Assembly (NCBI RefSeq): GCF_015169395.1
Contig: NZ_CP063458.1
Coordinates: 2,418,001 to 2,482,000 of the forward strand
From: Humisphaera borealis
GTDB lineage: Bacteria; Planctomycetota; Phycisphaerae; Tepidisphaerales; Tepidisphaeraceae
Length of the DNA: 64,000 nucleotides
Reading direction: 5' to 3'
Below the pieces are notes generated by a model. The model saw only the letters and a list, made by a program, of their open reading frames with translations, ran no database searches and was not told the origin of the DNA. This document shows, in pieces, positions 8,545 through 46,423 of this stretch (the stretch's first letter is position 1; each line of letters begins with the position of its first letter). Position numbers and translations under genes: made by a program.

Positions 8545-8737
8545 TCCCCTCCTCCGGTACTCCGGGGGAGGGTTAGGGTGGGGGTTGCTCCGATCGGCGT
8601 TCATGCGCGCTAGAGTTGCTTTGTCTATCTCTCGAAAAGCACTTGTAGCGGCGGGCGTCGCCTTCATGAGTTGTCGAGGGAATACCAACCGACACAACCC
8701 CCACCCTAACCCTCCCCCGGCGTACCGGAGGAGGGGA
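8545..8737. mobile_element. MITE-like element with 42-bp terminal inverted repeats
   Basis: Inverted repeats at 8545-8586 and 8696-8737 match at 41 of 42 positions (outer end TCCCCTCCTCCGGTACTCCG) and enclose 109 bp with no gene. It fills the whole gap between the permease stop and the NHL lipoprotein start. The left end, read on the minus strand, supplies the purine-rich ribosome binding site of the NHL gene. Confidence 0.75.
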
Positions 8738-36242: not shown

Positions 36243-37163
36243 ATGCATATGAAACTCGCTTTTGCAGGCCTCCTATTGCTCACATCGACCTCGGCCGTAT
36301 CGATGGCACAATCCGCACCGGCCAAACCGCTGGCTTCGGCTCGGCCGGCGACGGTCCCGGCCATGCCTAAGGGCGTCGAGTTTCAGCCCGACGTCGCCTA
36401 CCTGCCGGAGGGCCGATCGGAAAAGGCCGACCTCTACCTGCCCCAGAACCGGGCTCGCGACGTGCGGTCGCCGGCCGTCCTGATTATTCATGGCGGCGGA
36501 TGGTCGGGCGGCGAAAAGCGGGCGGCGCGCGAGATCAACATCGGCACCACGCTCGCCCTGCACGGCTACGTCGGCATGAGCATCGATTACATCCTGGCCA
36601 CCAACGGTAAGGTCACCTGGCCGCAGAACCTGCACGACTGCAAGACTGCCGTGCGCTGGCTGCGCAAGAACGCCGAGAAGCTGCAGATCGACCCCGACCG
36701 CATCGGCGTGATCGGCGGATCAGCCGGCGGGCACCTGGCGGCGATGGTCGCCGTCACCGGCCCCGGCGACGGCCTCGACCCCGCCGAGCCGTACGGCGAC
36801 CTCTCGTGCAAAGTGAAGTGCGCCGTCGATCTCTACGGCCCGGCCGACCTGACCGACCGCCCGGAGATCAGGATGTTCGGCAAGAAGCTCGCCGAGGCGC
36901 CAGAGCTCTACAAGAACGCGTCGCCGGTGAGCCACTTGGATAAGAACGATCCGCCCATCCTCATCATGCACGGCACGGCCGACATGACCGTGCCGCTGGA
37001 ACAGTCCAAGCTCTTCGCCGCCGCACTGGCCAAGGCGGGCGTGGAACATGAGTTGGTCATCGTCGAAGGCGCGCCGCACACGTTTCATCTGCAGCCGAAG
37101 CAGAAGGATCTGCGACCGATTGTGCTGGGGTTCTTTGATAAGTATTTGAAGGCGGGGAAGTGA
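36243..37163 (+). CDS. Secreted alpha/beta hydrolase (BD-FAE/HSL-type esterase)
   Basis: A 306-residue protein with a Sec signal (LAFAGLLLLTSTSAVSMAQ). The hydrolase core shows the oxyanion loop HGGGW, the nucleophile elbow GGSAGG, Asp in MHGTADMTVPLEQ, and catalytic His in APHTF. It most resembles bacterial carbohydrate esterases that remove acetyl or feruloyl groups from plant polysaccharide; the exact substrate is not readable. Two in-frame ATGs (36243, 36249) are close together. It is followed by two bow-tie elements and another secreted hydrolase. Confidence 0.88.
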   Translation: MHMKLAFAGLLLLTSTSAVSMAQSAPAKPLASARPATVPAMPKGVEFQPDVAYLPEGRSEKADLYLPQNRARDVRSPAVLIIHGGGWSGGEKRAAREINIGTTLALHGYVGMSIDYILATNGKVTWPQNLHDCKTAVRWLRKNAEKLQIDPDRIGVIGGSAGGHLAAMVAVTGPGDGLDPAEPYGDLSCKVKCAVDLYGPADLTDRPEIRMFGKKLAEAPELYKNASPVSHLDKNDPPILIMHGTADMTVPLEQSKLFAAALAKAGVEHELVIVEGAPHTFHLQPKQKDLRPIVLGFFDKYLKAGK

Positions 37164-37204: not shown

Positions 37205-37294
37205 GGGTGGCATGGGCAAGCGTACTCGCTTGCCCGTGGGGATCGCCGTCTGACGTTCGACACGGGCAACGGAGTACCGTTGCCCATGCCACCC
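37205..37294. repeat. Bow-tie element, family A (GTACTC loops)
   Basis: A 90-bp inverted repeat bounded by GGGTGGCATGGGC and its complement. It contains two hairpins, GGGCAAGC-GTACTC-GCTTGCCC and GGGCAACG-GAGTAC-CGTTGCCC. It is the reverse complement of the copy at 40776-40865 with scattered changes, several of them compensatory in the stems. Confidence 0.85.
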
Positions 37295-37306
37295 GGTCTG
37301 AACGGT

Positions 37307-37395
37307 TGGTGCCACGGGTCGGCGGTACTCCGCAGACCCGTGCGTGGACAGGCGGTCGGCACGGGTCTCCGGAGTACCGGCGACCCGTGGCACCA
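37307..37395. repeat. Bow-tie element, family B (GTACTC loops)
   Basis: An 89-bp inverted repeat bounded by TGGTGCCACGGGT and its complement. It holds two hairpins with stems GGGTCGGCG/CGCAGACCC and GGGTCTCCG/CGGCGACCC, and the same loops GTACTC and GAGTAC as family A. It ends 47 bases before the downstream hydrolase start. The sister copy is at 45358-45445. Confidence 0.85.
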
Positions 37396-37442: not shown

Positions 37443-38786
37443 ATGCGAAACCTTAGACCTTCATTCCTGATTGGCATTCTCGTTCTCGTCGCGTCCGCCT
37501 CGTCGGCGATTGCCGCCGATGCGCCTCCCGTCGCGCCCCCCTACTACGCCGTCCGGTACGAGGCCTCGGACAAACCCGGCGAATTGGCGATGCCGGTCAC
37601 TTACACCCTCTGGATCCCCGACGGCGTGAAGACCCTGCGCGGCGTCATCGTTCATCAGCACGGCTGCGGCAAAAGCTCTGGTCTGTCCGGGCAGACCGCG
37701 GCCTACGACCTGCACTGGCAGGCGCTCGCTCGCAAGTGGGACTGTGCCCTCCTCGGCCCGGCCTACTTTCAAACCACCGACAAGGACTGCCGCAACTGGT
37801 GCGATCCGCGCAACGGCTCGGACGCGGCGTTTCAGAAAGCGCTCGCACATTTCGCCGCCGAATCCAAGCACCCCGAACTGACAACCGTTCCGTGGTGTTT
37901 GTGGGGGCATTCCGGCGGCGGATTCTGGTCGAGCATCATGCTTACGCTGCATCCGGAGCGCATCGCGGCGATCTTCTTCCGCTCGGGGTCGGCGTACGCG
38001 ATCTGGGAACGCGGCGAAATCCCCAAACCAACCCTCACGCCGCCGGTGTACGAGGTGCCGTTCATGTTCATCGGCGGTGTGAAGGAAGCGCAGGACAAGG
38101 TCCACGGCCCGCCACGCCTCGGCGACCGGGCGATGCTCAAGGCGTGGCGCGAACACGGTGCGCCCGGTGGGCTGGCGTCCGATCCGCTCAGCGGTCATGA
38201 GTGCGGCGATTCGCGCTATCTCGCGATCGCATTCTTCGACGCCTGCCTGGCCCAGCGACTTCCAGACGCCGGCGGCGCGTCGCAGAAGCTCAAGCCGATC
38301 GACATGAAGCTCGCCTGGCTGGCCGCGCCGGATTCGAACGAAGCAAAGCCCGCGGGCGTGTTCACGGGCGACAAGAGCGCCGCCCACTGGCTTCCCGATG
38401 CGGCATTCGCCAGGGCTTGGAGTTCGTACAACCAGACCGGCCGTCCGAGCGACACCACGCCGCCGCCCGCGCCGACGAACGTGCGCGTTAGCCCCGCGGG
38501 CGAGCTGACCTGGTCCGCCGTCGCCGATCTGGAGAGCGGGCTGGGCGGATTCATCATCGAGCGCGACGGCAAAGAGATCGCCCGCCTGCCGCCCAAGCCC
38601 ATCGGCAAGATCGGAACGCTGTTGTTCCAGGGTTTAACGGGTGGCGATACCCCGATCGTCGCGATGCCGCCGATGGCGTTCAAGGACACGACCGCCGTGG
38701 CGGGCAAGAAGCATCAGTACGCCGTTCGAAGTGTGAACGGGGTGGGATTGGTTTCGCCGGCGAGTATGGCGGCTCCTGTGCCTTGA
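37443..38786 (+). CDS. Secreted alpha/beta hydrolase with C-terminal Fn3-like domain
   Basis: A 447-residue protein. A Sec signal (FLIGILVLVASASSAIAA) precedes an esterase-like alpha/beta hydrolase with HQHGCGKS near the oxyanion loop and the nucleophile elbow GHSGGG. The catalytic His may be in SGHECGDSRY. From about residue 340 the chain reads TPPPAPTNVRVSPAGELTW ... QYAVRSVNGVGLVSPAS, a fibronectin type III-like module. It is probably an extracellular enzyme on carbohydrate or ester substrates. The frame is open to 37344, but that portion is the family B bow-tie, so ATG 37443 is the start. Confidence 0.82.
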   Translation: MRNLRPSFLIGILVLVASASSAIAADAPPVAPPYYAVRYEASDKPGELAMPVTYTLWIPDGVKTLRGVIVHQHGCGKSSGLSGQTAAYDLHWQALARKWDCALLGPAYFQTTDKDCRNWCDPRNGSDAAFQKALAHFAAESKHPELTTVPWCLWGHSGGGFWSSIMLTLHPERIAAIFFRSGSAYAIWERGEIPKPTLTPPVYEVPFMFIGGVKEAQDKVHGPPRLGDRAMLKAWREHGAPGGLASDPLSGHECGDSRYLAIAFFDACLAQRLPDAGGASQKLKPIDMKLAWLAAPDSNEAKPAGVFTGDKSAAHWLPDAAFARAWSSYNQTGRPSDTTPPPAPTNVRVSPAGELTWSAVADLESGLGGFIIERDGKEIARLPPKPIGKIGTLLFQGLTGGDTPIVAMPPMAFKDTTAVAGKKHQYAVRSVNGVGLVSPASMAAPVP

Positions 38787-40775: not shown

Positions 40776-40865
40776 GGGTGGCATGGGCAACGGTACTCCG
40801 TTGCCCGTGTCGAACGTCATGTGGCGTCCACCACGGGCAAGCGAGTACCCTTGCTCATGCCACCC
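40776..40865. repeat. Bow-tie element, family A, second copy
   Basis: A 90-bp inverted repeat bounded by GGGTGGCATGGGC and its complement. It contains hairpins GGGCAACG-GTACTC-CGTTGCCC and a slightly decayed GGGCAAGC-GAGTAC-CCTTGCTC. It is in opposite orientation to the copy at 37205 and lies between xer and the DUF1772 gene. Confidence 0.85.
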
Positions 40866-43613: not shown

Positions 43614-43694
43614 TTGTGGCATGGGCATGTACTCATGCCCGTGTCTTCTCCGAGGCATCGCAAGCACGGGCATGAGTACCTGCCCATGCCACAA
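43614..43694. repeat. Bow-tie element, family A, third copy
   Basis: An 81-bp inverted repeat bounded by TTGTGGCATGGGCAT and its complement. It has hairpins GGGCAT-GTACTC-ATGCCC and GGGCAT-GAGTAC-CTGCCC. The stems are shorter than in the other copies but the loops are unchanged. It lies 29 bases upstream of the lipoprotein start. Confidence 0.85.
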
Positions 43695-45050: not shown

Positions 45051-45473
45051 GTGCGATTGGCTCTCGGGCCTTCGGCCCATCGGACGCACCTGCGAGCTCC
45101 GCCGCCGGGTGTCCCTCTGCCACTGCTTATCGGCCGATCCTCGGCCTTGCATGTACGCGGTCTTAGCGCAGTCCGCTCTCGGTCGTTATCGGACTGCCGG
45201 TGCCACGAGCTTGAGCATTCATCACTTACGATAGAATGCCGGGCAAAAGCCAATTCCAATCGTTGCTGACGATCGGTGTTACAACCGTTAAGCTCGGTGC
45301 AGGCGTAAATCCTGAGTTCGCGCCCGTTGCTGAAACCGCCTTCGACGAGACGTCTCCGGTACCACGGGCCGGCGGTACTCCTAAGACCCGTGAGCAAGTG
45401 ACGCGTCGGCACGGGTCTCCGGAGTACCGGCGACCCGTGGCACCAATTCGCCCGACGTAGACCTGCCAATCCC
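45051..45473. other. Intergenic region between TolB-like and SDR genes
   Basis: About 420 bases between divergent genes (less if the TolB-like gene starts upstream). It contains the family B bow-tie at 45358-45445. Nothing else is recognised. Confidence 0.5.
45358..45445. repeat. Bow-tie element, family B, second copy
   Basis: An 88-bp inverted repeat. The right half is identical over its hairpin to the copy at 37307 (GGGTCTCCG-GAGTAC-CGGCGACCC). The left half keeps loop GTACTC, but its stem has decayed (GGGCCGGCG/CTAAGACCC). It ends 28 bases before the SDR start. Confidence 0.82.
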
Positions 45474-46261: not shown

Positions 46262-46370
46262 CGTCAGTGAAACGGGCTTCCAGCCCGTGCATGGTGCGCC
46301 GGAGTAGGCAATCGTTCACACCAGCAAGCATTGAACCGCGCGCACGGGCTGGAAGCCCGTGTCACTGACG
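46262..46370. repeat. Two-hairpin (bow-tie) element, ACGGGCT type
   Basis: A 109-bp element whose ends (CGTCAGTGAAACGGGCTTCC and its complement) match at all but two of 30 positions. Each end is a perfect hairpin, ACGGGCT-TCC-AGCCCGT or ACGGGCT-GGA-AGCCCGT. It lies between the SDR gene and the isomerase gene, 53 bases before the latter's ATG. Confidence 0.82.
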
Positions 46371-46423
46371 GAGCCGTCAAAGGTCGAATCCTGTTCAGCG
46401 ATCGAACCATCCTGAGCCTACCC

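Follow-up and report, generated by a model that had tools for sequence, protein, structure and literature searches.

A GTACNC loop kept over changing stems in REP hairpins of Humisphaera borealis and its family, a probable recognition element of RAYT transposases

Two palindromic elements lie side by side in a 64,000-nucleotide stretch of the Humisphaera borealis genome (the window, below), and each half of each palindrome is itself a hairpin. All four hairpins present the same loop, on one strand or the other, whereas their stems differ. The locus raises the question of what kind of element is built in this manner, and of what might read a loop that is kept while the stem beneath it changes.

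Two bow-ties and their copies

The preliminary description of the locus presented elements A and B as bow-ties, each a palindrome of two hairpins. Inverted repeats, the four inner hairpins, and folding z-scores confirmed this architecture, with the coordinates as claimed (Table 1). The arms of bow-tie A (37205-37245 and 37254-37294) form an inverted repeat that is 83% complementary, and those of bow-tie B (37307-37343 and 37359-37395) one that is 95% complementary; each of the two B hairpins contains one unpaired position (G.A or T.C). Folding of the + strand as DNA gave z-scores of -8.1 for A and -10.5 for B, with none of 200 dinucleotide shuffles folding as well. The most stable fold of either bow-tie is a single long hairpin, in which both loops are paired together, and the two-hairpin fold is weaker (-46.4 compared to -65.5 for A, and -54.8 compared to -80.3 for B, calculated as RNA with the halves folded apart). 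Both bow-ties are intergenic: a + strand gene ends at 37163, and the gene that follows them, also on the + strand, has an ATG placed from the sequence at 37444.

The elements had initially been set apart from REP/BIME sequences. This contrast does not hold, because they are REPs, having a foot tetranucleotide of GTGG, GTGC, or GTAG, and A and B are REPINs/BIMEs, small, probably mobile repeats with a GTGG or GTGC hairpin foot. The foot of A is GTGG, while that of B and of the A3 hairpins is GTGC, a variant of the GTAG/GTGG foot rule. Nor are the stems of A and B wholly different, as had been claimed, since a CAYGGG/CCCGTG base is common to both.

Table 1. Coordinates of bow-ties, feet, and hairpins in the window
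Feature	Position	Strand	Remarks
Bow-tie A	37205..37294		REPIN of two inverted REP hairpins
GTGG foot, left A hairpin	37207..37210	+	mirror CCAC at 37289-37292; same foot in other copies
Left A hairpin	37211..37238	+	inner stem AAGC/GCTT; loop GTACTC 37222-37227
Right A hairpin	37261..37288	-	inner stem AACG/CGTT; loop GAGTAC 37272-37277
Bow-tie B	37307..37395		second REPIN
GTGC foot, left B hairpin	37309..37312	+	mirror GCAC at 37390-37393; same foot in other copies
Left B hairpin	37313..37342	+	inner stem GGCG/CGCA; loop GTACTC 37325-37330
Right B hairpin	37360..37389	-	inner stem GCCG/CGGA; loop GAGTAC 37372-37377
Further A bow-tie	40776..40865		loops at 40793, 40843
Short-stem A bow-tie	43614..43694		loops at 43629, 43674
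Further B bow-tie	45358..45446		decayed left half; loops at 45375, 45422
Two facing type-C hairpins	8546..8737		CCCCTCCTCCG stem, TTAGGGTG tail; loops GTACTC and GTACGC

The host genome was searched as its 7,189,892-base contig (7.19 Mb), in which a 191-base query spanning A and B had 85 matches. A pattern that specified only the outer stem, leaving the loop open, occurred at 209 + 212 = 421 places genome-wide, compared to 16 + 17 = 33 for the reversed pattern. A survey of 464 kb, comprising 20 stretches chosen for holding RAYT transposase genes or copies of the elements, plus the window, revealed 137 hairpins with 10 or more pairs. The GNGTAC loop or its complement was present in 55 of these (GAGTAC 38, GCGTAC 10, GGGTAC 7), and the next commonest loop occurred only 3 times. 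The survey contained 30 pairs of a left plus-strand and a right minus-strand hairpin, spaced by 43-60 bases.

The two halves were non-identical in 27 of these 30 bow-ties. Compared with reshuffled halves, in a test that entered every hairpin on both strands, the inner stems differed between the halves in 18 of 19 A-type (p 0.0016) and 14 of 15 B-type bow-ties (p 0.0024). The commonest pairing of B halves was GCCG with GGCG (13 bow-ties). In A it was AACG with AAGC, so that the paired change first seen at the locus (AAGC/GCTT against AACG/CGTT) is real, exactly these halves being present in 14 of the 19 A-type bow-ties. The excess of unlike halves fits copying of the doublet as a single unit. 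Empty sites were sought in a congener, where two orthologous genes are without the bow-tie, yet only a single flank aligns at each and no clean site was found.

A further bow-tie in the window (46268-46371), ACGGGCT-tcc-AGCCCGT, is without the GTAC loop and has tens of copies in a congener (G005).

A loop kept over changing stems

The preliminary description gave the loop as GTACTC on one side and GAGTAC on the other in every hairpin; this applies to the four hairpins at the locus, whereas genome-wide the loop is GTACNC. Loops were counted in matches that had been anchored on the outer stem, using the 98 plus-strand matches among the 100 listed of the 421 (the other 2 being minus-strand), and exclusion of one match of odd length left 97 for the six-base loop count. 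Among these listed matches, the loop was GTACNC in 82 of 97 and agreed with it to within one mismatch in 90, with N being T in 57, C in 15, and G in 10 of the 82. The four pairs next to the loop swap jointly (AAGC/GCTT, AACG/CGTT, TGCG/CGCT). The early impression of a conserved loop on a variable but paired stem was thus borne out.

The same loop was found on other stems. In type D hairpins, anchored on the outer stem without the loop, all 13 rows had GTACNC, and the inner stems were of at least three kinds (AAGCG, AAGT, GGAGC). Type C hairpins had GTACNC at five of six distinct places in the host genome (overlapping rows merged by eye), and ATACTC at the sixth. GTACNC is common to stem families A, B, C, D, and F. 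Across 26 GTACNC stem types, both-side changes occurred at all nine pairs; the rows had been picked for loop and pairing, which biases the pair counts towards pairing, and the alignment serves as an illustration rather than a test. On the 5′ side of type C, a GTRS foot was looked for and none was found, and CnGA was not constant across the 13 type D rows at the base of the stem, the start of which is unsure.

At several loci (L167, L174, L192, and L051 16176-16227), another short palindrome (GACATTCTTGTC type) precedes the GTACNC-loop hairpin.

RAYT genes, feet, and distribution of the loop

The host genome contains 11 Y1_Tnp matches, plus one further RAYT from a later search. The preliminary description had suggested looking for a TnpA-REP-like gene, and RAYTs of three kinds were present, each with GTACNC hairpins on both flanks (clade names I, II, and III were coined in this analysis). 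In clade I, these hairpins flank L047/L059 of the host genome (A3 hairpins at L047), as well as L060 and L061 of other genera. In clade II, they are present on both sides of L223 (host genome, type F) and L224, and on one side only of L225 and L242. The third kind is L043 of the host genome, where one flank holds a type D bow-tie and the other flank another copy, and type D hairpins recur elsewhere in that genome (the 13 rows above). Copies of A (AAGC/AACG) or B directly flank none of the RAYTs found in the host genome, the nearest B being 1.1 kb from L045. In the 20 kb stretches surrounding the RAYTs L001-L003 (L039 and L040), the sole GTAC-loop hairpin, at L039 8020, is weak.

With the NCBIfam model REP_Tyr_transpos (NF047646; cut-off 80 bits), L047 (88.6 bits), L042 (96.7), and L223 (173.1) scored above the cut-off, and L043 (29.6), L044 (77.9), L045 (40.8), L046 (45.4), and L001 (67.5) below it. 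The RAYTs scored higher with REP_Tyr_transpos than with transpos_IS200. Residues H59, H61, Y139, and N143 are invariant in 4 of 4 clade I proteins compared; we take H59/H61 to be the HUH motif, and Y139/N143 to belong to the YxxxN motif of the catalytic tyrosine. A clade I profile matched the solved TnpArep structure 4er8 (E 7.9e-8). A dnaA-like open frame, identified by eye (L059 2-1406), adjoins the RAYT with A3 hairpins.

Next to related RAYTs elsewhere, the foot is retained and the loops are different ones. Among clade I RAYTs of named genomes, an inverted word of at least 11 bases was common to both flanks at 60 of 80 loci, and the hairpin bases elsewhere are mostly GTGC-CAC, GTGC-CAT, or GTGG-CAC. 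An inverted pair of 14 or more bases was present at 64 clade I loci, counting those of the host family; GTGCCA stood on both sides in 37 of them, and some GTGC or GTGG word in 53, by a loose word count. The clade I loops elsewhere vary (tt, tgt, tgc, tcc, tctt, gcyttg, and more). In clade II, the foot GTAG was found on both flanks of 14 of 14 loci, with att, tgt, tctg, and gc loops outside the host family and GTACNC, ttcat, gat, and tc loops inside it. The stem GTAGGGTCCGC carries a tgt loop at L254, outside the family, compared to GTACNC on the same stem in G004, inside it. Next to clade I RAYTs of other planctomycetes, a GCYTTG-like loop recurs over differing stems (L126, L127, L130, L134, L135, L160), and the keeping of a loop over changing stems may be general.

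On a clade II tree of 22 rows, a single branch (support 97/92) unites the four GTACNC types, among same-family RAYTs with other loops. For clade I, loop classes were assigned by eye, with L106 relabelled GTACNC, and the tree was scored on the loci whose loop was clear, 54 of 84 rows. All loop classes together required 23 changes on this tree, compared to a shuffled mean of 29.3, and 0 of 200 shuffles were as low. GTACNC alone required 4 changes, at least two of them by starred branches, and was unclustered (64 of 500 shuffles as low). Loops tend to accompany RAYT branches. GTACNC probably had more than one origin; because it needs 4 changes and is unclustered in clade I, it was not simply inherited along one RAYT.

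The distribution of the loop was mapped with a covariance model of generic stems and a GTACNC loop (R1), trained partly on rows from the host genome, G004, and G014, and with a control carrying a GATC loop instead (R2). A genome-wide collection by covariance model had been advised at the outset. At E 1, R1 had matches in 22 of 26 host-family genomes (19 of 22 genera), with 139 in the host genome (150 candidates scored) and 494 across the 25 others, compared to 17 for R2 in all 26 and 0 in the host genome. Outside the family, R1 matches are at chance level. At E 0.1, they occurred in 19 of 198 other genomes of a phylum sample, about the expected number (39 candidates scored per genome), and at E 1 in 16 of 36 genomes of a class sample, with 1-3 matches each. 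Clade I RAYT loci of named genomes had GTACNC in 3 of 80 cases (L093, with a single hairpin, L106, and L097, which the criterion applied to the other two had missed). A universal planctomycetal loop was rejected on these two grounds. A tie between the loop and RAYT clade III was also rejected; among 28 loci scored, a clear GTACNC lay within 500 bases at L282 and a weak one at L288.

Proposed recognition and alternative explanations

A RAYT protein binds a folded single strand, and its cleavage is guided by the foot. We propose, with a probability of roughly 0.6, that the REPIN doublet is moved by a RAYT that reads both the foot and the GTACNC loop. Two inverted REP hairpins would multiply as one unit, mobilized in single-stranded form by a RAYT/TnpA-REP whose gene lies elsewhere in the genome, and A and B would be served in trans by RAYTs that are presumably active. 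The foot tetranucleotide 5′ of the hairpin would be recognized and would also guide the cut, and the apical loop would be contacted by the same protein. The stem would need only to pair, and could therefore drift by paired changes, with GTACNC acting as the loop code of the host planctomycetal family. The conservation pattern and the hairpin-flanked genes suggest that a transposase probably reads the GTAC loop. Weighing against the proposal are the lack of A or B copies directly beside a RAYT of the host genome, the one-sided alignments at the candidate empty sites, the type C hairpins without a 5′ GTRS foot, the unclustered GTACNC loop on the clade I tree, and the loop-blind group-2 RAYTs described below.

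Most parts of this scheme have precedents. REPINs, BIMEs, RAYTs, GTRG feet, and loop reading are already known, as the accessible parts of earlier work describe (PMC2817692, PMC3733652, PMC6006769, PMC8266576, PMC3686654). The preliminary description had set the loop against known REPs; according to the accessible text of PMC8266576, however, transposases are already known to read the loop in the REPs of S. maltophilia and Marinomonas, and loop bases are essential in both systems. The same text gives the Marinomonas loop as T-T-N-A, with one free position, reports a contacted loop base for IS608 and ISDra2, and states that group-2 RAYTs, such as that of E. coli, do not read the loop sequence. 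In GTACNC, G and C form the closing pair around three fixed bases and a single free one, which fits this published mode of loop reading. GTAG-type loops are described as mostly very short, many fitting TY or CMA, in the accessible text of PMC3733652, which contains no word beginning GTAC. A search of freely accessible literature text found no report of a GTAC loop in REPs.

The elements resemble gammaproteobacterial REPINs/BIMEs in their inverted foot-plus-hairpin doublet, high copy number, mostly intergenic position, GTGG/GTAG foot, and RAYT genes flanked by the same units (A3 at L047, F at L223, D at L043), although the A (AAGC/AACG) and B subtypes alone do not flank a RAYT in this way. As in the y and z REPs of E. 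coli, the halves of a bow-tie are of two subtypes. They differ in the six-base GTACNC loop over unrelated stems and several RAYT kinds, in a foot that is partly GTGC, and in a host family that belongs to Planctomycetota. Group 3 REPtrons of S. maltophilia and Marinomonas share the reading of foot and loop by the transposase (proposed here) and the one free loop position, but their loops have 3-4 bases and one RAYT each, and no loop used across RAYTs is reported for them in the accessible text of PMC8266576. Type D hairpins on both sides of L043, whose C-terminal YTLNQ is similar by eye to the class 3 Y motif, may recall class 3 TnpA-Y1 proteins with CnGA-foot structures (PMC6006769, accessible text); a constant CnGA foot was not seen in type D, however. 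As in IS200/IS605, an HUH Y1 transposase would recognize a folded single strand, but the doublet here is without a transposase gene, and the RAYTs are nearer to REP_Tyr_transpos than to transpos_IS200.

A and B thus belong to a known type of element, and their loop is specific to the lineage; the new part is that this loop is common to several RAYT lineages, stems, and feet in one family. Tentatively, several unrelated RAYT lineages of the family may have converged on GTACNC, such that REPs with differing feet and stems carry a common token, a reading we hold as possible but doubtful. If it is true, the shared reader would consist of cross-serving RAYTs, one REP population using the transposase of another, or of a host protein, and REP loops would be an interchangeable recognition module. 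To our knowledge, discrimination between own and foreign hairpins by RAYTs is understood biochemically for few systems only. Here, across dozens of genera, foot, stem, and loop each vary on their own, a natural mutagenesis in which the foot tracks the RAYT clade and the loop tracks the lineage. The reading rule is thereby testable by loop swaps between close RAYTs, and the loop-marked hairpin family is a ready resource for finding a common reader.

Among other explanations, a host factor of the family, not a RAYT, might read or require GTACNC, with REPs of unrelated RAYTs converging on it; confinement of GTACNC to the host family, and its presence in REPs of three RAYT kinds and of stem families A, B, C, D, and F, would be expected from such a factor. 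A host-wide loop rule is not supported, however, and a host-wide requirement is disfavoured because the same genomes hold REPs with other loops, including REPs of the host genome that combine a GTAG foot with a tt or ttca loop, the ttcat, gat, and tc loops by family RAYTs, and the tcc-loop bow-tie at 46268-46371 of the window. We regard a host factor as unlikely.

Common descent from one ancestral REP, the loop being kept by chance or structural bias without recognition, would account for the CAYGGG base and similar foot that A, A3, and B have in common, and for the 87-97% identity to the query of copies of one family (among the matches listed). The stems of C, D, and F, however, bear no obvious likeness to those of A and B, and D and F accompany different RAYTs, while five loop bases are kept in all. 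The loop also changes easily elsewhere, as outside the family the A3 base carries a tt loop (L088) and the B base a tcc or tgt loop (L087). Descent alone is improbable.

A role in transcripts, where the hairpins might be terminators, stabilizers, or processing sites and the loop an RNA signal, is less probable again. By crude gene calls, 30 of 40 hairpin clusters lie outside predicted genes (coding fraction 0.80), 16 of them flanked by tandem genes and 10 by convergent ones, as an RNA function might lead one to expect, but this context is near the expectation from gap length. Furthermore, a bow-tie read in either orientation shows GUACUC as well as GAGUAC, a search with Rfam at gathering score had 0 matches in the 64,000-nucleotide window, and the flanking of RAYT genes would be left unexplained. 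Pairing between the complementary loops of one bow-tie is very improbable, for although GTAC is self-complementary and GTACTC and GAGTAC could pair over six bases, a non-T N was present in either loop in 13 of the 30 bow-ties, the two N were equal, as full pairing needs, in 0 of these 13, and pairing could span the four-base GTAC core only; six-base kissing is not supported, because N varies without covariation between the two loops.

RAYT-like domains were also observed within larger frames. A DinG-type helicase of the host genome (L041 9225-12029, - strand, near C1:3416068) contains an in-frame RAYT-like Y1 domain, and the same insertion place was found in three genera (L041, L236 of G025, and L301 of G023; Helicase_C_2 plus Y1_Tnp), the Y1 score of the L236 helicase being below the Pfam cut-off; an HUH-helicase fusion is possible. 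A 584-residue frame (L048 8476-10230, + strand), thiamine-phosphate-synthase-like by eye, has a RAYT-like domain at its C-terminus.
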